Positions 19,363-36,429 of a DNA stretch of 49,782 bases are shown in pieces (the first letter of the stretch is position 1; every line of letters begins with the position of its first letter). Where the stretch lies: NCBI GenBank assembly GCA_013002345.1, contig JABDKH010000257.1, positions 1-49,782 on the forward strand, given 5' to 3'. This DNA is from Rhodothermales bacterium (GTDB taxonomy: Bacteria; Bacteroidota; Rhodothermia; Rhodothermales; JABDKH01). The notes below the pieces were generated by a model, which saw only the letters and a list, made by a program, of their open reading frames with translations, was not told where the DNA came from and ran no database searches. A program made the position numbers and the translations under genes.

Positions 19363-20400
19363 CTACTCGTAATCGTGCTCGAAGTACTCAATGCCACGCT
19401 TCGGCACACCCTTCGAGTTGTCCTCGATTCGCTCTGACAGCCGCTGCGCGAACACTTCCGCTGCATTGTATCCATAGTGTGCAAGAAGATGGTTCATGGC
19501 GATCACCTCACACAACACGGTCACATTCTTTCCAGGCGTGATCGGAAGCTTCACGAGTGGAAGCTTCACGCCGAGAATCTCGTACTCGTCCTCGACCATT
19601 CCAAGCCGCGTATACTCTTCGTCCGGATCCCAGACGTGCATGTTTACGACGACTTCGACTCTCTTCTGAAACCGGATTGCGCGAATGCCAAACATGGCGC
19701 GAACGTCCACCAGGCCGAGACCACGAATCTCCATGAAGTGCTGAACGAGATCCGTGCCCGAACCCATCAACAGGTTCTCTTCTTTTTGGGTCGCGATCAC
19801 AACATCGTCCGCAACTAGGCGGTGGCCCCTCTCGACCAGGTCGAGCGCAACCTCGCTTTTCCCGATTCCGGCTTTCCCCATCAATAGCATTCCGATGCCG
19901 TATACATCAACGAGCGAGGCGTGGATTGACTGCTGGAGTGCAAACTGATCGATCAGGAAGTCGCGGAGTACGGACATGAACTCCGTCGACGGCAGCGGCG
20001 TCCTGAAGATCGGTATGTCCGCCCGCGTCGCTATGTTGACGAGCGACTTGAGCAGCTTATTTCCTTCCGTCAGGAAGATGCACGGCACTGGGAATTTGAC
20101 CAGGTTGCGGAACGCTTTTGAACGATCCCTGGCTTCGAGATACATCAGAAACTGGTTCTCCGTATTCCCCAGGACCTGCACTCTCTGGTGGGTAAACAGA
20201 TCAATGTAACCGGCGAGCGCGAGCCCCGGTCGATGAAGATTGCTCTCGGTGACATTGCGCCCTTCACCGGTGAGTCCGTTCACGGATTCGATCTCCACGC
20301 CGACGACGGTCCGCAGATTTTCAATCAGAAATGGTACCGTGATCGAGTCCTTCTTGTACGCGATCGGTTGATGCAGCATTCCCGTCAGAGAAGATGGCAT
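19363..20400 (-). CDS. hprK: HPr kinase/phosphorylase
   Basis: Bifunctional enzyme that phosphorylates (and dephosphorylates) a serine on HPr in low-GC Gram-positives. In Bacteroidota and Proteobacteria with incomplete PTS it serves regulatory roles that are less clear. Length 345 is slightly above the usual ~310-330. The N-terminal domain (1-145) precedes the conserved His160, the P-loop GKAGIGKSE (175-183; canonical members have G-D/T-S-G-x-G-K-S, so Ala replaces Ser) and the family signature MEIRGLGLVDV (223-233). The start at 20400 is likely; a second ATG seven codons in is possible. It lies 46 bases downstream of the MoxR gene on the same strand. No ptsH or ptsI is in the window. Confidence 0.95.
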   Translation of the reverse strand: MPSSLTGMLHQPIAYKKDSITVPFLIENLRTVVGVEIESVNGLTGEGRNVTESNLHRPGLALAGYIDLFTHQRVQVLGNTENQFLMYLEARDRSKAFRNLVKFPVPCIFLTEGNKLLKSLVNIATRADIPIFRTPLPSTEFMSVLRDFLIDQFALQQSIHASLVDVYGIGMLLMGKAGIGKSEVALDLVERGHRLVADDVVIATQKEENLLMGSGTDLVQHFMEIRGLGLVDVRAMFGIRAIRFQKRVEVVVNMHVWDPDEEYTRLGMVEDEYEILGVKLPLVKLPITPGKNVTVLCEVIAMNHLLAHYGYNAAEVFAQRLSERIEDNSKGVPKRGIEYFEHDYE

Positions 20401-20446: not shown

Positions 20447-21442
20447 CTACGGTACCTCTACGGTGTCGAGAATCTTCTGGACAATATCTTCGCTGTTGAT
20501 CTCCTCAGCTTCAGCCTCGTACGTAATCGCGACGCGGTGGCGAAGGACGTCCATCGCTATAGAACGAACATCTTCCGGTGTCACGTACGCCCTATGGCGC
20601 AGAAACGCATGAGCGCGCGCGGCCAGATTGAGATTAATCGATGCACGTGGCGAGGCACCGTACTGAATGAGGGGAGCAAGATCGGCCAGTTTGTAAGCGG
20701 CCGGCTCTCTCGAAGCGACGACCAGGTCCACCATGTATTGCTCGACTCGATCGTCTGCGTAGAGATCGTTGATGACGGTCCTCGCTTTCAGAATCTGCGC
20801 TGGCGTTACGACTTCCCTGACAACCGCTTTGTCTCCGGTCCGGGCATTGCGCCGCATGATCTCCAGTTCTTCCTTCCGGGTGGGATACGAGACTTTGATC
20901 TTCATCATGAAGCGGTCGACCTGCGCTTCCGGTAACGGGTAGGTGCCCTCCTGCTCGATCGGGTTCTGTGTAGCGAGTACCAGAAAGGGTTCCTCCAGTG
21001 GAAACGTGGTTTCTCCGATCGTCACCTGCCGCTCCTGCATGCTCTCCAGGAGGGCGCTCTGCACTTTCGCCGGCGAACGGTTGATCTCGTCCGCCAGAAT
21101 GATATTCGAAAAGATCGGTCCCTTCTTAATAAAGAAGTCACCATCCTTCTGGTTGTACACGAGCGTTCCGAGGAGGTCCGCCGGCAGCAGGTCAGGCGTG
21201 AACTGTATTCGCTGGAATCCGGTGCCAATCGACCGTGCGAGGGAACTGACGGTCAGCGTCTTGGCAAGCCCCGGCACGCCTTCCAGCAGCACGTGGCCCT
21301 CTCCCAGCAACCCGATCAGCAGCCGCTCGATCATATATCGTTGTCCGACAACAACTTTGCCGATCTCGGATACCAGGTCATCCACAAACCTGCTCTCACT
21401 GGCAATTCGTTCGTTTACTGCCGCAATGTCGAAATCACTCAT
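20447..21442 (-). CDS. MoxR-family AAA+ ATPase
   Basis: Cytoplasmic AAA+ chaperone of 331 residues, of the type that usually activates or assembles a partner protein with a von Willebrand factor A domain. Walker A is EGVPGLAKT (54-62), Walker B is ILADEINRSPAK (about 115), sensor 1 is LATQNPIEQEGTYPLPEAQ, and the arginine-finger region follows with QVDRFMMKI. The C-terminal lid carries YGASPRASINL, typical of MoxR. Normally a DUF58 and a VWA gene follow moxR. Here hprK follows instead, so the usual partner genes are missing locally. The stretch upstream is only 54 bases, so it probably continues the transcript of the galactokinase-like gene. Confidence 0.95.
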   Translation of the reverse strand: MSDFDIAAVNERIASESRFVDDLVSEIGKVVVGQRYMIERLLIGLLGEGHVLLEGVPGLAKTLTVSSLARSIGTGFQRIQFTPDLLPADLLGTLVYNQKDGDFFIKKGPIFSNIILADEINRSPAKVQSALLESMQERQVTIGETTFPLEEPFLVLATQNPIEQEGTYPLPEAQVDRFMMKIKVSYPTRKEELEIMRRNARTGDKAVVREVVTPAQILKARTVINDLYADDRVEQYMVDLVVASREPAAYKLADLAPLIQYGASPRASINLNLAARAHAFLRHRAYVTPEDVRSIAMDVLRHRVAITYEAEAEEINSEDIVQKILDTVEVP

Positions 21443-21496: not shown

Positions 21497-22741
21497 CTAC
21501 AAAAGTACGGTATTTGCGGCTATTCCGAATTGCTCCTGGAGCGCGACCTTCGCTTCATCCAGAAAGGCCGGAACCACGAAAGGTCGTCCCAGGATGAGCA
21601 CAGCACCCGCGGATCCGAGCGCACGCGCTCCGTGTATTCCATCGGCGCTTCTCTCCTCGGCAAGTTGGACGACCATATCGGTTTCGTCCACCGTGTACCC
21701 GAAATCACGATCCAGCGACGCGTGCGACATCAACATCAGCGCTCCGAAGAGTTGCCAGTCACCCTTGCGAGCCGCCACCATAAGACGGTGGACGCGCTGG
21801 TTCTCCCGGACGAGGTGCCTGAGCAATGGCCGCGACCCGCGCGAGAGAGCCTTCTCGGCGAGCTCCAGATCCTTGTGCTGCAGATCGCGAATGGAGTCCA
21901 GTTCCGGAAACTGCTTCTTTCTCAGTCGTTCCGCAATCCCGTCGGCTTCCTGCTGGCGACGCTCGAGGAGCGACGCTACCGACTCCTTCTGCTTACCGGT
22001 TTCTATCAACCCGAACGCAATTTCGTCGTGAAGCGCCACCGGGAAATCCGTGTGACGCCCGGTCTTCACATCAATCGCCATGAACGAATCGGCAATTGCG
22101 GCGTCCGACGCGATGGCATACGCAATGCTGCATGGCCGGCCTGTTGACTCGACAATCGCTTGCGTCGCGATGGAGAACACCTCCTCGTCTCCCAGCGCAA
22201 GAGCGAAGACTGACTGCAATGTCCGCAGGCACGATACAGCAAGTGCAGCTCCGTACGACTCCTCGCACGATGGCACGATCGTGCTTACGACAGATATGTC
22301 CACCTGGCGTGTAATGCCATCGAGCGCGTGGAGCACACGCATAACGACCTGGGCCCACCAGGGGGTTTCGGGTGTCACAGAGTCGATCGACCCGGCATCG
22401 AACGACCAGCAATAGTCTTCACCCTCAAACACCAATCGAGAGACCCGGTCTGGACTGTCACGTATTGCGACGGCGATGCCATCCCTCACGGGAATCAGCA
22501 AGGCGAAGCCATCAAACAGTACGGTGTGATCCACGGCAACACCCAGGGCGCCGTGAGAGAACGTACGTTCCACCACTTCGGACGATACGCCGAGCTGCCC
22601 GATAAGGTTGTCGTTTGCGCGGGCAGTGAGCCCGGCAGGCGTGATCGCATCTCGCTCGTTAAGACGCTCAAGTGCGCGCAGCAGAGGAGGCACGAACGGA
22701 GGCGTCCAGTTCTGTATCGAGAGTCGAGGATCCTGCTCCAT
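21497..22741 (-). CDS. Degenerate galactokinase-family (GHMP) protein, probable pseudokinase
   Basis: A 414-residue protein that I match to the galactokinase family by region-by-region reading. Residues 71-85 (DHTVLFDGFALLIPV) correspond to the GEHTDYNDGFVLP sugar-binding motif. Residues 311-347 (VRENQRVHRLMVAAR through SHASLDRDF) match the conserved TENARTxEAA...SHASMRDDF block of GalK. VDETDMVVQLAEE matches the VPQIDTLVE stretch, and ARALGSAGAVLIL the MTGGGFGGC motif. The key sites are altered. The arginine of GRVNLIGEH is lost, the ATP motif GLSSSAAL reads SCEESYGAAL (158-167), CGIMDQ reads CSIAYA (204-209) so the catalytic Asp is gone, and the GGGFGG loop is not kept. A sugar or nucleotide sensor like yeast Gal3 is one idea. 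The gene is intact, so it is not an obvious pseudogene. Confidence 0.75.
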   Translation of the reverse strand: MEQDPRLSIQNWTPPFVPPLLRALERLNERDAITPAGLTARANDNLIGQLGVSSEVVERTFSHGALGVAVDHTVLFDGFALLIPVRDGIAVAIRDSPDRVSRLVFEGEDYCWSFDAGSIDSVTPETPWWAQVVMRVLHALDGITRQVDISVVSTIVPSCEESYGAALAVSCLRTLQSVFALALGDEEVFSIATQAIVESTGRPCSIAYAIASDAAIADSFMAIDVKTGRHTDFPVALHDEIAFGLIETGKQKESVASLLERRQQEADGIAERLRKKQFPELDSIRDLQHKDLELAEKALSRGSRPLLRHLVRENQRVHRLMVAARKGDWQLFGALMLMSHASLDRDFGYTVDETDMVVQLAEERSADGIHGARALGSAGAVLILGRPFVVPAFLDEAKVALQEQFGIAANTVLL

Positions 22742-22915: not shown

Positions 22916-23866
22916 TTATCGGGCCGCCTGGCGCCCCGGGCGACCAAGTAATTCGCCTCTGGTCAGACGGTATCCTCGTAGTGCCTCTCTGGCGCTCATC
23001 TTGCGACGGCCCTCCAGTTGGAGCTCCATGATCTCAACCGCACCGTCTCCACAGGCGACAATCATTTCATCTTCCGAACCAAGCACCTCGCCGGGCGCAC
23101 CGCTTTCGCTGCGACGGCGCGACCTCAGAGCCTTCAGAATGACGTCGCCATGATGCGTGAACGCTCCCGGAACCGGCGACATCCCTCGAATGTGGTTGTG
23201 GACCTTCGCCGCCGGCAGATTCCAGTCAATCTCCGCGTGGGCGCGGAATACTTTCGGCGCGGGGCTGGCAAGCGTGTCGTCCTGTGGAAGCGAGGGCACA
23301 TCGCCGAGTTCAATTAACCGGACGGTATCGACAACGGCCTCAGCGCCCAGGGTCATCATCCGGTCGTGGACGTCACCCGTCGTCTCGTCCGGACCAATAG
23401 ACATTTCACGCCTTAGAATTACGTCTCCCGTGTCGACCTTTTGCTTCAGAAAGAACGTCGTAACTCCCGTCGTCCGGTCACCGTTCAGCACCGCATGATG
23501 GATGGGTGCAGCACCACGATACCTGGGAAGAAGTGAGCCGTGCAGATTGAACGCTCCGAGTCGGGCGGCTTCATACACCGCCGGTGGAAGAATCTTGAAC
23601 GCCACTACGACAATCACGTCCGCGGCCAGGTCTACGACATCCGCAGCGAATGCAGGGTCCTTCACCGACTCGGGCTGCATCACCTTGTCGATCCCGAGGC
23701 GCAATGCCGCCCGCTTGACCGCAGAGGTCTGCAGCTTTGACCCTCTTCTCCCTGGCACGTCCGGAACGGTGGCAACGGCTACGGGCCCGTAGCCTTCTTC
23801 CACGAGACGCTCGAGAGAGGGTACCGAAAACTCCGGCGTTCCCATGAACACGATCCGCAAAGACAT
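22916..23866 (-). CDS. fmt: Methionyl-tRNA formyltransferase
   Basis: Transfers the formyl group of 10-formyltetrahydrofolate to initiator Met-tRNA before translation starts. Length 316 is normal. The N-terminal Rossmann domain begins MSLRIVFMGTPEFS. The active site shows Asn107, His109 and Asp145 in FNLHGSLLPRYRGAAPI and KVDTGDVI, the same Asn-His-Asp triad as in E. coli. The C-terminal domain (from about 205) has IDWNLPAAKVHNHIRGMSP. The frame is open for 20 codons upstream, but the ATG at 23866 gives the conserved start. A def gene, the common neighbour, is not present; the gene stands between the GWxTD gene and the galactokinase homologue on the same strand. Confidence 0.97.
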   Translation of the reverse strand: MSLRIVFMGTPEFSVPSLERLVEEGYGPVAVATVPDVPGRRGSKLQTSAVKRAALRLGIDKVMQPESVKDPAFAADVVDLAADVIVVVAFKILPPAVYEAARLGAFNLHGSLLPRYRGAAPIHHAVLNGDRTTGVTTFFLKQKVDTGDVILRREMSIGPDETTGDVHDRMMTLGAEAVVDTVRLIELGDVPSLPQDDTLASPAPKVFRAHAEIDWNLPAAKVHNHIRGMSPVPGAFTHHGDVILKALRSRRRSESGAPGEVLGSEDEMIVACGDGAVEIMELQLEGRRKMSAREALRGYRLTRGELLGRPGRQAAR

Positions 23867-23954
23867 GGCGCACGCTAGATGGTGGACGGACTGAAAACAA
23901 GAAAAGGATGCCTGGAAATCAGACACCCTTCACGATAGCGAATATCCGGCACAA

Positions 23955-28337: not shown

Positions 28338-29183
28338 TCATCCCTTAACAGCGCCGAGCGTCAATCCGGAAATGAGGAAGCGACTGAGAATGAGGAAGAG
28401 CGCAACGACCGGCACCGAGACCAGCATCGAACCGGCCGCATACAGGCCCCACTGTGTCTGCATGCTCCCCTGAAACATCTTCAGCCCGAGGGGCAGCGTG
28501 TACAGCTCGGTGTCTTGCAGAACGACATTCGCGACCACATACTCGTTCCACGCCGTCATGAACGAGAAGAGCGCGGTGATCACCAGTGCGGGTGCCGCGA
28601 GCGGAAGGATCACCCTGGTAAACGTCTGCCATGGAGTCGCGCCGTCAATGCGAGCCGCCTCTTCGAGCGCGAACGGAATGGTGTCGTAGTAGCCTTTCAT
28701 CTGCCACACGCAAAACGGTAACGCCGTGGCGGTATAGATGATGACAATCCCCAGATACGAATTCAGCAGGTGCAACTTGATCAGCACCACGTAGAGGGGA
28801 AGCAGAAGCATCGTGGCCGGAAACATCTGCGTGACGAGCAAGCCGCTGAGCATCGCGCCTTTGCCGGAGAATTTATACCGCGATAGCGCATAGCCGGCCG
28901 TCGACGCAAACGCGACGCCCGTTGCCGTCACAACCAGAGACACGACAAGCGAGTTCAGCATCCACCGGAGGAACTGCGTCTCCGTCAGGAGATGCACATA
29001 GTTCTTCAGCGACGCGCCCTCAGGAATCATGGCGAGAGACGTAGACAACAGCTGATCGCCCGGGCGAAGCGAAATAGTGATAATTCGCGTTACCGGGTAG
29101 ATCGCGATAAACGCGAACACCAGGAGGACGGCATAGGTACCGAACATTCCCAGAAACCGCCTTGACTCGAACCGTTTGATCAT
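28338..29183 (-). CDS. malG: Maltodextrin-type ABC transporter permease MalG
   Basis: Inner-membrane permease of the carbohydrate uptake family 1 (MalG/LacG) type, 281 residues with six predicted membrane spans. The EAA loop that docks the ATPase reads LEEAARIDGATPWQTFTRVILP. The N-terminus (residues 13-35) is the first span, and the ending LISGLTLGAVKG is typical of MalG. It lies seven bases after malF and is the last gene of the long minus-strand cluster. No terminator is evident in the 25 bases before the convergent glycosyltransferase stop. Placement beside GH13 enzymes suggests maltose or maltodextrin as substrate; this is context-based. Confidence 0.93.
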   Translation of the reverse strand: MIKRFESRRFLGMFGTYAVLLVFAFIAIYPVTRIITISLRPGDQLLSTSLAMIPEGASLKNYVHLLTETQFLRWMLNSLVVSLVVTATGVAFASTAGYALSRYKFSGKGAMLSGLLVTQMFPATMLLLPLYVVLIKLHLLNSYLGIVIIYTATALPFCVWQMKGYYDTIPFALEEAARIDGATPWQTFTRVILPLAAPALVITALFSFMTAWNEYVVANVVLQDTELYTLPLGLKMFQGSMQTQWGLYAAGSMLVSVPVVALFLILSRFLISGLTLGAVKG

Positions 29184-29190
29184 GGTCTCC

Positions 29191-30120
29191 CTAATAGGCG
29201 GCTTTTGTCGCGCCCGTCCGGCTCAGAAACACCTGGCTGAACGTGAACAGAATGACGAAGATGACCATCGACAGGGCTGCAGCCCATCCGAACCGGTATG
29301 CACTGAAGGCCGCCTTGTACACAAAGGACACAAGGATGTGGGTCTGATCATTTGGCTCGCCCATATTCGAGACCAGCCACACAACGTTTATGTTGTTGAA
29401 TGTCCAGACGATGCCGAGCGTGATCGCCGGAAGCATGACCGGTTTCAACAGCGGCGCAGTGACGTTCCAGAACTTCTTCCAGGCCGAGGCTCCATCAACG
29501 TCGGCAGCTTCGTATAGCTCGGCCGGAATAGACTGCAGTCCTCCCAGGGCAATCACCATCATGAAGGGAAAACCGAGCCAGATATTCGTGAGGATGGCCG
29601 CTGAGAAGGCTTCTAGTGGCGATGTCAGCCACTCGACCGGCGACAGATTCATGTACTTCGTGATCATCAGATTTATCGCGCCGTAGTCGTAGTTGAACAT
29701 GCCGCGCCACGTGAGCGCAGTGATGTACTGCGGCAACGCCCACGGCATGATCAACAGCACACGCCACGCCGGCTTCCCGACCACGAACTTCTGATGCAAC
29801 AGGACCGCGAGGAACACGCCGAGTACGACGTGAAAGATGATGTTGACGAGCGTCCACACGACCGTCTTGAACAGGATCTCCCAGAACTTCGGCTCCTGAA
29901 ATACGGCCGCGTACTGCTCGAAACCGACCACATCCCAGTCGCGGATGTGGTAGATGTTCATATTCGAAAGCGACAGAACCACATTGAAGAAGAACGGATA
30001 CGCTACGACCGCAAATACAAGGACTACGGTCGGTCCGAGCAGGAAGAACAGAAACAGTCGCGTCCGCCGCCTTTCGCTGCTGCCTCCCACCGATAAGTCC
30101 AGAACTCCGCCGCTCGACAT
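29191..30120 (-). CDS. malF: Maltodextrin-type ABC transporter permease MalF
   Basis: Second inner-membrane permease of the importer, 309 residues with six predicted spans. The EAA loop is YEAADVDGASAWKKFWNVTAPLL, and RVLLIMPWALPQYITALTWRGMF is the usual MalF stretch. The large periplasmic insertion of E. coli MalF is much shorter here. The gene begins four bases after the malE stop and ends seven bases before malG. A MalK-type ATPase is not encoded anywhere in the window and must be supplied from elsewhere, as with the shared MsmX-like ATPases of other bacteria. Confidence 0.93.
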   Translation of the reverse strand: MSSGGVLDLSVGGSSERRRTRLFLFFLLGPTVVLVFAVVAYPFFFNVVLSLSNMNIYHIRDWDVVGFEQYAAVFQEPKFWEILFKTVVWTLVNIIFHVVLGVFLAVLLHQKFVVGKPAWRVLLIMPWALPQYITALTWRGMFNYDYGAINLMITKYMNLSPVEWLTSPLEAFSAAILTNIWLGFPFMMVIALGGLQSIPAELYEAADVDGASAWKKFWNVTAPLLKPVMLPAITLGIVWTFNNINVVWLVSNMGEPNDQTHILVSFVYKAAFSAYRFGWAAALSMVIFVILFTFSQVFLSRTGATKAAY

Positions 30121-30124
30121 AGCT

Positions 30125-31342
30125 CTACAGGAATGTATCCGCGATTCGTTTCTCCACTTCGCGCTGCATCAGGCGAGCGCCTTCCTCCGGCGATACGGCG
30201 CCGTTCATCACCAGCTGGTACGGCCCGCGCATGCCGTCCCATATCTGCCGCATTTTCGGATCGATCGGCATAGGGCGGCTCACTTCGATCTGTGCAAGTG
30301 ACTGCTTGAGCCGCGGGTTCTCGTTCATCACTTCCGATTCGCGGACGGACGTCATGACCGGAATCGTCGTCAGTTCGGCGGCCATCGCCGCCTGCATCTC
30401 AGCACTCGTGAGATACTCAAGTACGCGGCGAACGAACGGAAGCTTTTCGTCGGGTACGTTCGCGTTCACACAGTAACCCTTGGACGAGATGACCGGTGCG
30501 CTCCACAATCCGGTTTCGTCGTTCATCGGAATGCGCGACAGACCGTAATCGATGCCCACCTGTTCGTATCCGGTCCACGACCACGGTCCGTTTATGATGG
30601 CCGCCACGCGCTGCTCCTTGAACGTCGCCTCCGCGGTGTCATAATCGGTCGTGCCCGGAATCACGCGGTACTTGTCGCGGAGGTCCAGTATGAGGCGGAT
30701 GGCCTTTACCGTCGCCTCCGTATTCAGCGACGGACGACCGTCTTCGTCCATGACCCACCCTCCGTACCCCGTAAGAAACGGAAGGAAAAAGAAAGGCTCC
30801 GTGTAGTTCCACGTCAATCCGTACGTGACTTCGGGACGACTCGCGAGCTCAGTGAGCATCGAGATCATTTCCGAGATCGTCTCGGGCGGTTCCGTGATGT
30901 AACGCTTGTTGTAGACGAACATCAGATGGTTGCCAACCTGATCTGCGACCATCCACGGCTGATCGTTCCAGCTGAGTACGCCCTCGTCGTTGAACTGCGA
31001 GAGATATTCGGACGTCAGGACACGATCAATCGGCATGATCGACTCCGTAAGCGCCAGCACCGACACGTTGTCCGATGGCCCAAAGAGAAGTTCTGGACCT
31101 TTCCCTCCCACCGATGCGATCACGAACAGGTTACGCGCCTCCTCCGTCTCGCGATAAAGCACTTCAACGACGTGATCCGTATTGTCCGCATTGTACTGGG
31201 CGACAACCCGTTCGAAGAACAGACGCTCCGGACCGATCTTCTGATGCCAGATCCGAATTCGGGGTACATCGGGCGCACTGGCACAGCCGGCCACAAGAAG
31301 CGTGCACGCAAGTATAATTCCCCGGTGGAAGCCGCTACTCAT
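30125..31342 (-). CDS. malE: Maltodextrin-type solute-binding lipoprotein MalE
   Basis: Extracytoplasmic solute-binding protein (family 1) that delivers sugar to MalFG. From the ATG at 31342 it has 405 residues; an ATG at 31381 in the same frame would add 13 residues and lengthen the overlap with the preceding gene. The signal peptide ends LLVAGC with the lipidated Cys at residue 20. Family landmarks are IRIWHQKIGPERLFFERVVA near the N-terminus, YNKRYI, YGLTWNYTEPFFFLPFLTGYGG, and the hinge region AAIINGPWSWTGYEQ. A lipid anchor in an organism with two membranes suggests tethering to the inner membrane, or to the outer membrane facing the periplasm. Its start overlaps the stop of the GH13 gene by eight bases. 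Confidence 0.92.
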   Translation of the reverse strand: MSSGFHRGIILACTLLVAGCASAPDVPRIRIWHQKIGPERLFFERVVAQYNADNTDHVVEVLYRETEEARNLFVIASVGGKGPELLFGPSDNVSVLALTESIMPIDRVLTSEYLSQFNDEGVLSWNDQPWMVADQVGNHLMFVYNKRYITEPPETISEMISMLTELASRPEVTYGLTWNYTEPFFFLPFLTGYGGWVMDEDGRPSLNTEATVKAIRLILDLRDKYRVIPGTTDYDTAEATFKEQRVAAIINGPWSWTGYEQVGIDYGLSRIPMNDETGLWSAPVISSKGYCVNANVPDEKLPFVRRVLEYLTSAEMQAAMAAELTTIPVMTSVRESEVMNENPRLKQSLAQIEVSRPMPIDPKMRQIWDGMRGPYQLVMNGAVSPEEGARLMQREVEKRIADTFL

Positions 31343-33236
31343 TCCGGTCACGAGTGGATTGGATGGCTGTCGAGTCCTCAAGCAGAGCAGCCGTTAGCGG
31401 CGCCAGCTCAACCGCAAAGGTAGCACTATTCTCAGTGACCCGAACGTCCGTGTCACTTGACGTCGAAACGACGACATCGACACCACTCCACCCGGCAGGT
31501 CGAGGAATATCGAACGTGCATGACTCGTTGCCCCGGTTCATGACGACAATGGACCGGTCCGAACCCACACTGCGAACGAACCCGAACGATTGACTGCAAT
31601 CGCTTGAGCCGATTGGCTCGAAATCGCCGCGGCGCAGAACAGTACGCTCGTGTCGGACACGGAAGATCTTTTGGTAGTAGTCGTAAAGATCCCGGTCAAA
31701 AGCGACCGTGTCGGCTCGCTCTGCGCGTCCGGAAGGATCTGTCCGCTGTACATCGTAGTCCAGGTCATCCCAGACCATTGGCATCCTGTCATCGGGGTCG
31801 TCGGCGCCCCACATACCTGACTCGGTGCCGTAGTAGATCATCGGGGGTCCCACGTGCGTCGCCTGAAGCAGCGCGATCATCCGCTGAATTCGGCGTTCAC
31901 GGGTGTCCGGCTTGCGGACGTCGAATGCTCGCCCACCCCGCGGGGACGAATCACGATCGAAGTCGAACACATCGGGCTCTGTATAGCGGCTTTCACGATT
32001 TGCAATCATCGACGCGATGCGTGGTGTGTCGTGAGAATCAACCAGGTTCAGAAGACCGTATCGATTCGCCGGAGCGTAGCGATCCATCCGATCCTTCAGC
32101 ATCCGGACAAAGGCGTCTCCCGTCATCATGTCATCAACCAGGAATCCTTTGACGGGCATCGCGAAGGCGAAGTAGTTCATGGTTCCGGAAAAGCCGCCGC
32201 GCTCCACGTCTTTGCCTGCGTCAAGCCAGATTTCGGCCACCGTGTACGCGTCAGGATTTATCGATCTCACATGCGCGTTCCAGTCTGCCCAGAACTTGAT
32301 CGGTACGTCCGGAACGACATCGAGTCGCCAGCCTGCGATCCCATCCGACGGATCGCCGTCACCGTCCGGATCCATCCACCGGCGAGTAACCTCGAACACA
32401 TATTCCTTCGGACCTGGATGCAGATCATCACCGCCGGGCGCATCCGCAAATTCGGGAAGGCTCTTTGCTCCCCACCAACCGTGGTAGTCGAATTCGTTCG
32501 CCGGTGTTGACGGGTCGTCGAAGCGTTTGACGCGGTACCAGTCGCGGTATGGCGAAAGCTCTCCGTTTCGACGCAGATCTGCGAAAGCGAAGAAGTCGCG
32601 GCCCGTGTGATTCCACACACCGTCCATGACAATACGAATATCGCGATCACGTGCTTCCGCCAGCAGATCGAGGAAAAGCCGGTCGGCCGTAGTCCAGTGC
32701 CATGACTCGGGGTCGGACGTCTCTGAGGCGATCAGTTCGAGGTCCGCGACGGGATCCGGCCCGAAGAACGGATCGATGTGGTGGAAGCTGTTCCCGTCGT
32801 ACTTGTGCATCGAGCGGGCATAGAAAAGCGGATTGAAGTAGATGGCGTTGATCCCGAGTTCCGCGAGGTAGTCCAGTTTTTCGATCACACCGGCGAGATC
32901 ACCTCCGTACCGCCGGTGAAAGACGCCGTGTTCATAGAAATCATCACCGGCAGCGACTTCCCAGTCGGCCCGGGCGTACCAGTCGGCCGTCCAGCTGCTC
33001 GGCCGCCAGGTGGCAGGGACTCGCTCCGGATAATCGAGCGAGGCGTGGGTCGGGTCATTATCAGGATCGCCGTTCCGGAAGCGCTCCGGAAAAATCTGAT
33101 AGAAGATGGCGTCGGCCACCCAGTCAGGGACCGTGTTGCTGGCGAGGTGTCCTCCCGTCTCCTGCTCAGACGTGCAGGACGCGATTGCGACAACGAGGAG
33201 GCTACATAAGATCAGGCCTGACGTTACTTGTGACAT
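31335..33236 (-). CDS. GH13 alpha-amylase-family lipoprotein (neopullulanase/cyclomaltodextrinase-like)
   Basis: Alpha-glucan hydrolase of 633 residues. The signal peptide ends VAIASC with lipidated Cys21. The GH13 barrel starts WVADAIFYQIFPERFRNGDP, as in neopullulanases and cyclomaltodextrinases. Conserved regions: region I DGVWNH (205-210), region II GWRLDVV with nucleophile Asp306, region III VAEIWLDA with acid/base Glu335, and region IV VDSHDT with Asp403. All are intact. The C-terminal beta-sandwich begins near residue 540. It probably cuts maltodextrins in the periplasm or at the membrane, feeding MalEFG. Its stop codon overlaps the malE start, so translation is probably coupled. The 214 bases upstream hold an 8-bp hairpin and no gene. 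Confidence 0.94.
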   Translation of the reverse strand: MSQVTSGLILCSLLVVAIASCTSEQETGGHLASNTVPDWVADAIFYQIFPERFRNGDPDNDPTHASLDYPERVPATWRPSSWTADWYARADWEVAAGDDFYEHGVFHRRYGGDLAGVIEKLDYLAELGINAIYFNPLFYARSMHKYDGNSFHHIDPFFGPDPVADLELIASETSDPESWHWTTADRLFLDLLAEARDRDIRIVMDGVWNHTGRDFFAFADLRRNGELSPYRDWYRVKRFDDPSTPANEFDYHGWWGAKSLPEFADAPGGDDLHPGPKEYVFEVTRRWMDPDGDGDPSDGIAGWRLDVVPDVPIKFWADWNAHVRSINPDAYTVAEIWLDAGKDVERGGFSGTMNYFAFAMPVKGFLVDDMMTGDAFVRMLKDRMDRYAPANRYGLLNLVDSHDTPRIASMIANRESRYTEPDVFDFDRDSSPRGGRAFDVRKPDTRERRIQRMIALLQATHVGPPMIYYGTESGMWGADDPDDRMPMVWDDLDYDVQRTDPSGRAERADTVAFDRDLYDYYQKIFRVRHERTVLRRGDFEPIGSSDCSQSFGFVRSVGSDRSIVVMNRGNESCTFDIPRPAGWSGVDVVVSTSSDTDVRVTENSATFAVELAPLTAALLEDSTAIQSTRDRNE

Positions 33237-33277
33237 CGAATCCAGCTCTTGGTCAGTTGCGTGGCACTTTCTCCGTC

Positions 33278-33297
33278 ATGGCCGCAAGAGCGGCCAT
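33278..33297. repeat. Hairpin between the two GH13 genes
   Basis: Perfect inverted repeat ATGGCCGC-AAGA-GCGGCCAT in the 214-base gap upstream of the lipoprotein GH13 gene. There is no T-tract on either side. It could be an mRNA processing or stabilising element within the operon; a regulator site cannot be excluded. Confidence 0.45.
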
Positions 33298-33450
33298 CCA
33301 TGGACATCTCATGTCGTATCGACTGTGTACGATTTTCGCAGCCTGTCCAGCGCTATCACGAGCACGGGATCGATCTCCGATCACGCCCCGCCCTCTCGAA
33401 CACGATGGAAAGCGAGCGAATGCGGAGTCCCGGGACGACAACCGTAGTGT

Positions 33451-36390
33451 CTACCTCAAATGAACAACTGTGCGATTAAGAATCACGCCGTCACTCTGCA
33501 GACGCACCAGGTAGGCCCCACTGGGTTGGTCAGTGGCATCCCACAAGATTTCGTGATTGCCCGCCGGCAGTCTTCCTGCAACGGGGACAGCCACGCGCCG
33601 GCCGAGGATGTCGAACACTTCAACTTTCGCACTACCGGGAGCGGGCAGCGCAAATCTCAGGGTCGCAACCCCACTGAAGGGGTTTGGATAAACTGACGCG
33701 AACTCGACCGCTTGTGGTAGTTCGGACGGTTCCTGCTCCACATCTACCGTGATCAAACCCGACTCCGGTGTCTCGACCGGCCTGTTCGTATAAATGTGAA
33801 ATTCGCCAGGCGCAAGTAATAACGGCGCACTGGCGTCCGCCACCGGCACGTCAGCGCCGGTAAAGAAGTCGAACCAGGTACCCGGGTGATGGAAAGCCGG
33901 TGTACCGTTCGCCGGAGTGACACCAAAGTTGCCCAGAATCACCACATTCATGGTGGGATGCGACAGCTTGATGCGCTTGACAGCACTTGAGACGCTCAGC
34001 TCAACATTGGTCTGGGTGCTGGAGAACACCTCATGGTTCATTCGCAGGTTGATGATCGCGGACAATGCGCCGTAGAGCCGCTCGCGGAGAGGATCGTTGC
34101 GGTAATCCCACCGGATCGGTTTGCGACCCGTGCGGCTCGGCGTGCCGGCCGGGCAATCGCCCAGCTCGTCTCCCGGACGTAGACACTCCCGCCCGTCCGG
34201 TCCGTAGCCGTATCCAAGCTCCCCGAACTGCCACATCATCTTGGGACCCGGCAAGGTGAAGAAAAAAGCCCCAGCCATCTTCATTCTGTCTAACGCCGTG
34301 TTGAGCTGGCGAACATTGTACGTCCCGAAGTTCAGGGGATCGGACGGCGCGCAGACAAGATGATTGGTGATCGACCGCGTACAGGCTCCAAATGCCAGGT
34401 TCTTGAACATCAGCCACTGCTCGTCGTGGCTCTCCATGTAGGAGACTATATTCGGGACGGTCCACCCACGGCCTCCGGTTCCGTAGTACACGCTGGCGAA
34501 GTTGGACTTGCCACTGCCGTGGTAGCCCATCGCCGCTTCGCTGTAGTTTGAGTGCTTATTGTTCCAGAGCATCATTCCCGGGCGGCCGCTAGCGATCCCG
34601 TATTCTGCCAGTTCACGCTCCTCGCGATCCTCTGCGAAGTGTTCCAAAATGACATACGCCGTGGAGTCTACCGCCCAGAGCTGATCCGCCATCCGCTTCA
34701 GTATCTGGATCCGGCTGGTGTCGTACAGACGCATCACTGAATCATCCGTACTGTTGACCTGCGTGAAGCCCTTGGAGAGGTCAAAACGAAATCCGTCGAC
34801 ATTGAACTCCTCCAGCCAGTACTCGCTGGCTCGATCAAGCCAGTACTTTGTCGCTGTACTCTCGTGGTTCAGATCGTTAAAAACGTTGAAGGGGTGCCGG
34901 GCCGTCGTGTTGGCATAGATGCTGTTCGAATTTGGTGGCGCGGATGGGTCCCCCGTTTGCGAGGCATTGTAGAGGCGTATCAGCGGTGACTGACCCGTTG
35001 CGTGGTTATAGACGACGTCAAGGATCACCGCGATACCTCGCTGGTGACACTCATCCACAAAACGCTTCAGGTCTTCCGGGGGGCCGTAGTACTTGTCCGG
35101 CGCCAGATGAAAGGCCGGGTTGTAGCCCCAGCTGTCATTCCCGTCGAACTCGGCCACCGGCATCAACTCGATGGCGTTGACGCCAAGTCGCTCTATGTAG
35201 TCGAGAGTATCGATGAGCGTTGCGTAGTCGTGATTCGAAATGAAATCGCGAATGAGCATCTCATAGATGACAAGGTCCTTCTGCTCCGGGCGTTCGAAAG
35301 GCGCCCAGTTGAATGCACTCTCTCCCGTTTTGAAGACACCGACCATCTGGGTCGTCTCGCCGGTCGGGTAGGCCTTGAGTCCCGGATAAACCGATGCCAG
35401 AAAACCGTCATGGGACGGATCCAGCAGTTTCGTGGCGTAAGGATCTGCAACCCGTATCTGGTTGTCGACGAGATACTGATACCCGTATTCCTGTCCGGGA
35501 GTCAGGCCGTCCAGCGTTAGCCACCACCGAATGGAGTCTGCATTGATTGAATCGCGCTTCATGAGGAAGTCGTCACTGACTTCCCAGTTGTTGAAGTCGC
35601 CGATGACATGCACGAAGTTCTTGCCCGGGGCAAACAAAGCGAGGGTGACGCGGGACGGATCGGCATCGTCCATTGTGACGCCGTCGCGAACACCAGGAGG
35701 GGCTGGTTCGTCGACCACGATGGGGGCGGGGTCGCCGACGCTCACGGAATCAGATCGCCCCATGGCGTCCGTCGCGATCAACTTGAATGTTGAATTAATA
35801 GAGAGGGGCGACGGAGGCGTGTACTGAAAGACTCTCTTTCCCGCATCGAAGAACGGCATGCCGTCCATCGGGACTTCGTTGATCTCAAATGTAATTGCGG
35901 TTACAGCAGCCGTTCCAAATACACCGACCGAAATACGTTCTACTTCGTTCAACGACGTACTGATTTTTCCCGCTGGCTGGAAGACCATTGGGTCCTTGAT
36001 CGTGACGAGCGAATTCCCGTCGTTGTTGCCTGTGAAAATGCGGTCGTTGTAAAAGTCTGCGAACCATGCCCAATCTGAACCGCTGTCGTTGAACTGAAAA
36101 TGAAGCTTATACTGATGCGAGGCGCCCACAAGCAGGGTTTTGGTGTACACGTATTCGTCGAGTTCAGCGTCATAAGTGAATTGCGACGGGTCCCCCACCG
36201 GGATTCTGCCGGCACTGTTGTTGCCCCAGTTGTTAAAGTCACCCGGGTTGTACACACGGACAAAGTTCAGGTCAGGTCGCTGAACGTAACGAAACGTCAC
36301 GTTGATCGGCTGGGCTGCTGCCATCCCCGCAAGCACGAGCGACAGCGATGCCGCGCACACGAATAGTCGTCCGACAGGCATTATTCGCAT
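33451..36390 (-). CDS. T9SS-exported GH13 alpha-amylase with starch-binding modules
   Basis: Large secreted alpha-amylase-family enzyme of 979 residues from the ATG at 36390, chosen because it starts a signal peptide (RLFVCAASLSLVLAGMAAAQ). Modules in order: an N-terminal beta-sandwich (about 28-140) with VRVYNPGDFNNWG, a linker sandwich (about 145-225), a CBM48-like module (about 240-335) with FVHVIGDFNNWE, the GH13 barrel (about 370-770), an all-beta domain, and a C-terminal T9SS tail (VYPNPFSGVATLRFALPAPG to the end). Catalytic regions: DVVYNH (458-463), GFRFDLSKG with Asp537, ILEHFAED with Glu583, and MESHDE. The tail implies passage through the type IX system to the cell surface or medium. 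It should act first on starch or glycogen outside the cell. Confidence 0.94.
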   Translation of the reverse strand: MRIMPVGRLFVCAASLSLVLAGMAAAQPINVTFRYVQRPDLNFVRVYNPGDFNNWGNNSAGRIPVGDPSQFTYDAELDEYVYTKTLLVGASHQYKLHFQFNDSGSDWAWFADFYNDRIFTGNNDGNSLVTIKDPMVFQPAGKISTSLNEVERISVGVFGTAAVTAITFEINEVPMDGMPFFDAGKRVFQYTPPSPLSINSTFKLIATDAMGRSDSVSVGDPAPIVVDEPAPPGVRDGVTMDDADPSRVTLALFAPGKNFVHVIGDFNNWEVSDDFLMKRDSINADSIRWWLTLDGLTPGQEYGYQYLVDNQIRVADPYATKLLDPSHDGFLASVYPGLKAYPTGETTQMVGVFKTGESAFNWAPFERPEQKDLVIYEMLIRDFISNHDYATLIDTLDYIERLGVNAIELMPVAEFDGNDSWGYNPAFHLAPDKYYGPPEDLKRFVDECHQRGIAVILDVVYNHATGQSPLIRLYNASQTGDPSAPPNSNSIYANTTARHPFNVFNDLNHESTATKYWLDRASEYWLEEFNVDGFRFDLSKGFTQVNSTDDSVMRLYDTSRIQILKRMADQLWAVDSTAYVILEHFAEDREERELAEYGIASGRPGMMLWNNKHSNYSEAAMGYHGSGKSNFASVYYGTGGRGWTVPNIVSYMESHDEQWLMFKNLAFGACTRSITNHLVCAPSDPLNFGTYNVRQLNTALDRMKMAGAFFFTLPGPKMMWQFGELGYGYGPDGRECLRPGDELGDCPAGTPSRTGRKPIRWDYRNDPLRERLYGALSAIINLRMNHEVFSSTQTNVELSVSSAVKRIKLSHPTMNVVILGNFGVTPANGTPAFHHPGTWFDFFTGADVPVADASAPLLLAPGEFHIYTNRPVETPESGLITVDVEQEPSELPQAVEFASVYPNPFSGVATLRFALPAPGSAKVEVFDILGRRVAVPVAGRLPAGNHEILWDATDQPSGAYLVRLQSDGVILNRTVVHLR

Positions 36391-36429
36391 TTTGTCCTTA
36401 GACGTTTTCCTGATAGTTGCCGGAGACAC

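Follow-up and report, generated by a model that had tools for sequence, protein, structure and literature searches.

A galactokinase-derived pseudokinase maintained beside moxR and hprK in the Rhodothermales

Why should a gene that resembles galactokinase, and whose catalytic motifs are all changed, lie between fmt and a gene for a MoxR ATPase in a member of the Rhodothermales? We addressed this question starting from contig JABDKH010000257.1, the whole analyzed stretch of which (49,782 nucleotides) is referred to here as the window, and in which the frame proved to be intact, as first described (Table 1). The original prediction took its product for a conserved pseudokinase encoded in an operon with moxR and hprK, perhaps a sensor comparable to yeast Gal3. 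The first part of this proposal is borne out by motif loss throughout the clade, purifying selection, the predicted fold, monophyly, and a co-directional gene order, while the comparison with Gal3 fared poorly.

Table 1. Features of the pseudo-galactokinase locus, in window coordinates
Feature	Position	Strand	Evidence or state
hprK, HPr kinase/phosphorylase, third operon gene	19363..20400	-	TIGR00679, 353 bits (cut-off, 240); full length
moxR, AAA+ ATPase, next operon gene, 54-57 bp downstream	20447..21442	-	Pfam AAA_3, E = 8e-65
Pseudo-galactokinase ORF, 414 aa	21497..22741	-	Intact frame, ATG start
GSAGA, residues 376-380, shortened GGGFGG loop	21602..21616	-	Shorter by two residues in nearly all orthologs
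PCSIAYA, residues 203-209, at the GalK CGIMDQ site	22115..22135	-	Catalytic Asp replaced
Site of the missing GLSSS phosphate loop, residues 157-166	22244..22273	-	Loop absent in 59/59
Replaced motif 1, residues 63-81	22499..22555	-	GalK PGRVNLIGEHTDYNDGFVL, here HGALGVAVDHTVLFDGFAL; family consensus HGxxGLxADHTHYFDGFAL
fmt, methionyl-tRNA formyltransferase, conserved upstream neighbor	22916..23926	-	TIGR00460, 227 bits (cut-off, 201.5)

The galactokinase-like blocks noticed in the sequence reflect a genuine relationship, since three NCBIfam galactokinase profiles gave significant matches running along the length of the ORF (PRK03817, E = 1e-29; PRK05101, 4e-25; TIGR00131, 3e-18) and phmmer matched it to human GALK1 (E = 3e-14). 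The bit scores were far under the curated equivalog cut-offs (104 versus 443 for PRK03817 and 66 versus 226.65 in another galactokinase profile), and both Pfam domains fell just short of their gathering values (GHMP_kinases_N, 18.0 versus 22.3; GHMP_kinases_C, 20.8 versus 21). Despite these subthreshold Pfam scores, homology to the GHMP family is clear from the galactokinase profiles. All 54 aligned members matched galactokinase models, and 26 of them still matched the Pfam galactose-binding signature PF10509. With 54 orthologs as input, AlphaFold gave a model (mean pLDDT, 91.3; pTM, 0.89) whose top Foldseek matches among solved structures were human galactokinase chains (E = 4e-25; TM score of 0.76 by query and 0.82 by target). 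Relative to GalK, the protein has ca. 30 extra N-terminal residues, which form a helix in the model. By sequence as well as by predicted structure, the product is a galactokinase-fold protein.

In order to follow the catalytic and ligand positions, residues were mapped on MAFFT and HMMER sequence alignments, and motifs were counted over 59 aligned orthologs. Four losses had been predicted from the window's copy, and the same changes recur throughout the orthologs, the first three in every one of the 59. Within GalK motif 1 (GRVNLIGEHTDY), the Arg of GRVNL (E. coli R28) is gone in 59/59, and the galactose-contact Asp (E. coli D37) is retained in none, being replaced by His in 49. The GLSSS loop was found neither at its site nor at any other position in the 59 orthologs. 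At the position of the catalytic Asp (E. coli D174) there is Tyr in 36 and Phe in 15, with an acidic residue in none, and no ortholog has a relocated acid within 3 columns; a shift of the Asp or of the phosphate loop to other positions, looked for by alignment, is thereby ruled out. The fourth motif, the GGGFGG loop, is two residues shorter in nearly every ortholog. The adenine-side Tyr is also gone in all 59, and the Tyr equivalent to human Y236 is mostly gone. By comparison, true GalKs of the same order keep the Arg, the Asp, the SSS, and the catalytic Asp in 18 of 18 rows (E. coli GalK being counted twice).

A column comparison showed 24 conserved GalK positions common to both groups, 19 GalK-invariant positions that have been lost, most of them in catalytic or ligand sites, and 23 positions newly conserved in the pseudo-galactokinase clade and not in GalK. 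The signature HTHYFDGFAL is conserved where GalK motif 1 was, as is a C-terminal helical block (RPxxRHLVTENRRVQ ... DWQxxGALL). Motif loss combined with newly conserved positions indicates a pseudoenzyme under a new constraint and not decay. At the level of aligned residues, the clade has lost the positions for ATP binding, phosphotransfer, and galactose contact and has gained conserved residues of its own; the protein presumably carries out no phosphotransfer. The most divergent ortholog (L054:6029-7231, genome G033) has a GGGVGG glycine loop and an SGEHTAY motif 1 together with loss of the phosphate loop and of the catalytic Asp, and may preserve an intermediate state.

Strong orthologs, with 25 to 40% identity, were found in ca. 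66 of 114 Rhodothermales genomes from 11 GTDB families. Part of the genome set consists of metagenome assemblies, in which a gap may pass for an absence. Many genomes of the order also have a true galactokinase elsewhere, visible as a weaker second match. A profile search across the class gave, beyond the order, matches that scored at the galactokinase level only, and the six that were checked as possible relatives turned out to be ordinary galactokinases with intact motifs. Among 396 genomes sampled from the phylum, a nucleotide pattern for HTHYFDGFAL matched 19, all within the order; the pattern does not detect diverged copies, the one in the window among them. In the window's genome, no galactokinase-model match exceeded its cut-off, so that this genome may have no true galactokinase; other GHMP kinases are encoded there (L121:153-1316 and L124:2524-3159), of the types PGRIEVLGKHTDYAGG, GMSSSSAL, and GGSEDHTAIL.

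In an 84-row tree, the pseudo-galactokinase orthologs formed one clade (support of 100/99) that excluded the order's true galactokinases, with subclades following families, as vertical inheritance predicts. Motif loss is therefore most simply placed once, before the sampled families diverged, and the tree shows that this galactokinase-derived pseudokinase arose a single time, before or early in the Rhodothermales radiation. Close pairs with unsaturated synonymous sites gave dN/dS values of 0.14 (L122/L092) and 0.11 (L055/L084), while more distant countable pairs ranged from 0.07 to 0.14, with one outlier of 0.30 (L081/L082); these values range from near the fmt level to about three times that level. 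The frame is open in almost all orthologs. Values of 0.07 to 0.14 indicate a functional protein, and the gene is kept by purifying selection in the Rhodothermales, which, together with the loss of catalytic residues across the clade, is the combination that characterizes a functional pseudoenzyme.

The prediction that the gene lies between fmt and a MoxR ATPase, in an operon with moxR and hprK, was confirmed by profile identification of the neighbors, and its relatives keep this company. The usual order is pgsA, ftsY, in some cases a GWxTD protein, fmt, pseudo-galactokinase, moxR, and hprK, often followed by a convergent smc. The pseudo-galactokinase and moxR are on the same strand in all 37 loci where both were captured, separated by a median of 57 bp (within 150 bp in 33 of the 37), and the median gap between moxR and hprK is 27 bp. 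Where genes have been inserted, they fall between fmt and the pseudo-galactokinase: genus g37 has an MscS-type channel there and family f1 an RND-type permease, both identified by eye. The MscS-type mechanosensitive channel gene (L048:7549-8490, L080:4974-5924, L117:8446-9648) takes this position in g37 and lies between fmt and moxR in G058, a genome without the pseudo-galactokinase; in G058, a 401-aa ORF between moxR and fmt was considered as a diverged copy and, by eye, looks like a channel of this type. In the hprK regions examined from genomes without the gene beside hprK, it is absent from the region, most of these regions reading fmt-moxR-hprK, and in G067 it adjoins fmt at ca. 450 kb from moxR-hprK. 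The window's genome has a second moxR elsewhere, 49% identical.

The locus had also been described as lying apart from sugar genes. This holds for the immediate operon but not for the wider region, given that a maltose-type ABC transporter and amylase genes lie ca. 4 to 12 kb upstream of fmt, beyond ftsY and pgsA. At positions 28338-36429 of the window, malE, malF, and malG-like genes and two alpha-amylase-family genes precede the pgsA-ftsY-fmt block. In family f7 (L051, L053, L114), malG lies directly before pgsA, so that a sugar uptake locus recurs beside the region.

Given that the third gene of the operon encodes a complete HPr kinase/phosphorylase, we examined the rest of its pathway. The window's genome has one HPr gene, adjacent to an EI gene, and its product carries AGIHTRPA at the His15 site and GKSIIGVM at the Ser46 site, so that the components of an HprK/P-HPr-EI system are present, hprK in the operon and the others elsewhere in the genome. 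In a survey from 2008, Bacteroidetes were listed as having no PTS (PMC2405797), which implies that the Rhodothermales branch was not covered by it. In several genomes of family f12 (G051, G053 to G056, and G074 to G077), HPr and EI domains are fused in one frame of 840 to 940 residues resembling multiphosphoryl transfer proteins, mostly alongside a stand-alone HPr. Neither hprK nor the pseudo-galactokinase occurs in families f2 and f3 (f3 is almost entirely without HPr as well), a co-occurrence that counts as one or two events because the hprK-less genomes are phylogenetically clustered. The evolutionary rate of the pseudo-galactokinase covaries positively with those of moxR and hprK (for hprK, partial r of 0.37 to 0.52 after control for fmt and ftsY; L001 and G022 are the same and were counted once) and equally strongly with that of fmt, so that this measure is not decisive. 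Among sites of moxR or hprK, consistent change where the gene was lost gave no signal above that of fmt. Many HprK-positive genomes have no pseudo-galactokinase and an intact moxR-hprK pair, to which the gene is thus not essential. From gene order, co-occurrence, and rate covariation, that is, from genomic context, we infer a link to HprK/HPr.

A galactokinase shape without its catalytic parts, kept for so long with two regulatory genes, probably belongs to a regulator or adaptor and not to an enzyme, and we put the probability of a non-catalytic regulatory or adaptor partner in the MoxR-HprK operon at roughly 55%. The protein would act with the products of its operon; its altered sugar pocket (HTHYFDGF) may accommodate a ligand, or the conserved helical block near its C terminus may contact a partner. 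MoxR would serve as the ATP-driven remodeling factor, and the output would be HprK, the enzyme that phosphorylates HPr at Ser46. That the control is exerted specifically on HprK/HPr is a more tentative proposal, and we are more doubtful still of the complete module, in which the pseudo-galactokinase as a metabolite sensor and a dedicated MoxR ATPase together govern HprK and thus the phosphorylation state of HPr. MoxR AAA+ proteins work in systems such as RavA-ViaA and CbbQ-CbbO or with DUF58/vWA partners. The ATPase encoded here is a canonical MoxR, but no vWA partner was found among the neighboring genes examined, and the pseudo-galactokinase occupies the position where such a partner usually lies.

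Among the other readings of the locus, a decaying galactokinase is the least credible. The gene does evolve faster than its neighbors, several lineages have lost it, and the family f1 branch that includes the window is long; against this, the frames are open, dN/dS is about 0.1, and the clade has a conserved signature of its own, so that for the clade as a whole decay is refuted by selection and conservation. Within f1 alone, relaxed decay is possible. The window's own copy reads HTVLFDGFAL instead of HTHYFDGFAL, and the departure from the signature, the long branches, and the losses in this lineage may together reflect relaxed constraint. The f1 copies (21497-22741 of the window and L056:6584-7813) lack the signature His and Tyr (HTVLF and HVIFM), and the sister genomes G023 and G025 have no copy and carry the RND-type permease on the opposite strand. 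Scarcely more credible is a sensor of galactose and ATP modeled on Gal3. The resemblance to yeast Gal3 and Kluyveromyces lactis Gal1 lies in a galactokinase homologue, inactive in Gal3, with a regulatory role, which for the pseudo-galactokinase is presumed, and the fold without its catalytic Asp and the surviving PF10509 matches speak for it. However, inducers of the Gal1/Gal3 type act through binding of galactose and ATP, which induction requires, and through Gal80 (PMC7556753), whereas here both sites have degenerated and the neighboring genes are moxR and hprK. With the motif 1 Arg, the galactose-contact Asp (now His), mostly the Y236-equivalent Tyr, the adenine-side Tyr, and the whole phosphate loop lost, the analogy is weak; a sensor of some other ligand is possible.

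Two further readings are unlikely, each to a lesser degree. The protein could serve another process as its regulator or adaptor and be a mere passenger of the fmt-moxR-hprK region, as suggested by the persistence of moxR-hprK after its loss, by the genome in which it stays with fmt far from moxR-hprK, and by the rate covariation with fmt. Yet a passenger would not readily account for its invariable orientation with moxR or for insertions that fall on the fmt side and not between the gene and moxR. A little less probable is that the GalK fold now catalyzes a different reaction, perhaps without ATP, in an altered pocket (H72, H74, Y75, S205, Y208, R102, and D224). New polar residues near the former sugar site are indeed strongly conserved (S205 in 53/59, besides the His that replaced Asp in 49/59), but the window's copy has Val and Leu instead of H74 and Y75, H72 is Gln in 11 orthologs, and no clear invariant catalytic set emerges. 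Moreover, known GHMP kinases and decarboxylases use the phosphate loop, which is missing here. Compared with GalK of human (GALK1), E. coli, Lactococcus lactis, and Pyrococcus, the protein shares the fold, the full-length profile match, the 24 conserved positions, and the C-terminal helical block ending in SHAS, but differs in the missing phosphate loop, catalytic Asp, and motif 1 Arg, in the shortened glycine loop, and in the changed galactose contacts. The non-catalytic partner in the MoxR-HprK operon is the reading we prefer.

In a literature search limited to open-licence papers, we found no description of such a bacterial pseudo-galactokinase, nor of a pseudo-galactokinase or MoxR as a partner of HprK. 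The clade represents an order-wide bacterial pseudokinase of the GHMP family that curated models would label galactokinase-like. If the protein works with MoxR and HprK, it would offer a handle on the input of HprK in the Rhodothermales and show how a MoxR ATPase functions without an adjoining vWA partner, and it would be a second galactokinase turned regulator, after yeast Gal3. Should the complete module prove true, it would be a bacterial sensor with a sugar-kinase fold wired to carbon regulation and evolved independently of Gal3. Rhodothermus marinus, which belongs to the order and has been cultivated, is the natural choice of species for testing these proposals.
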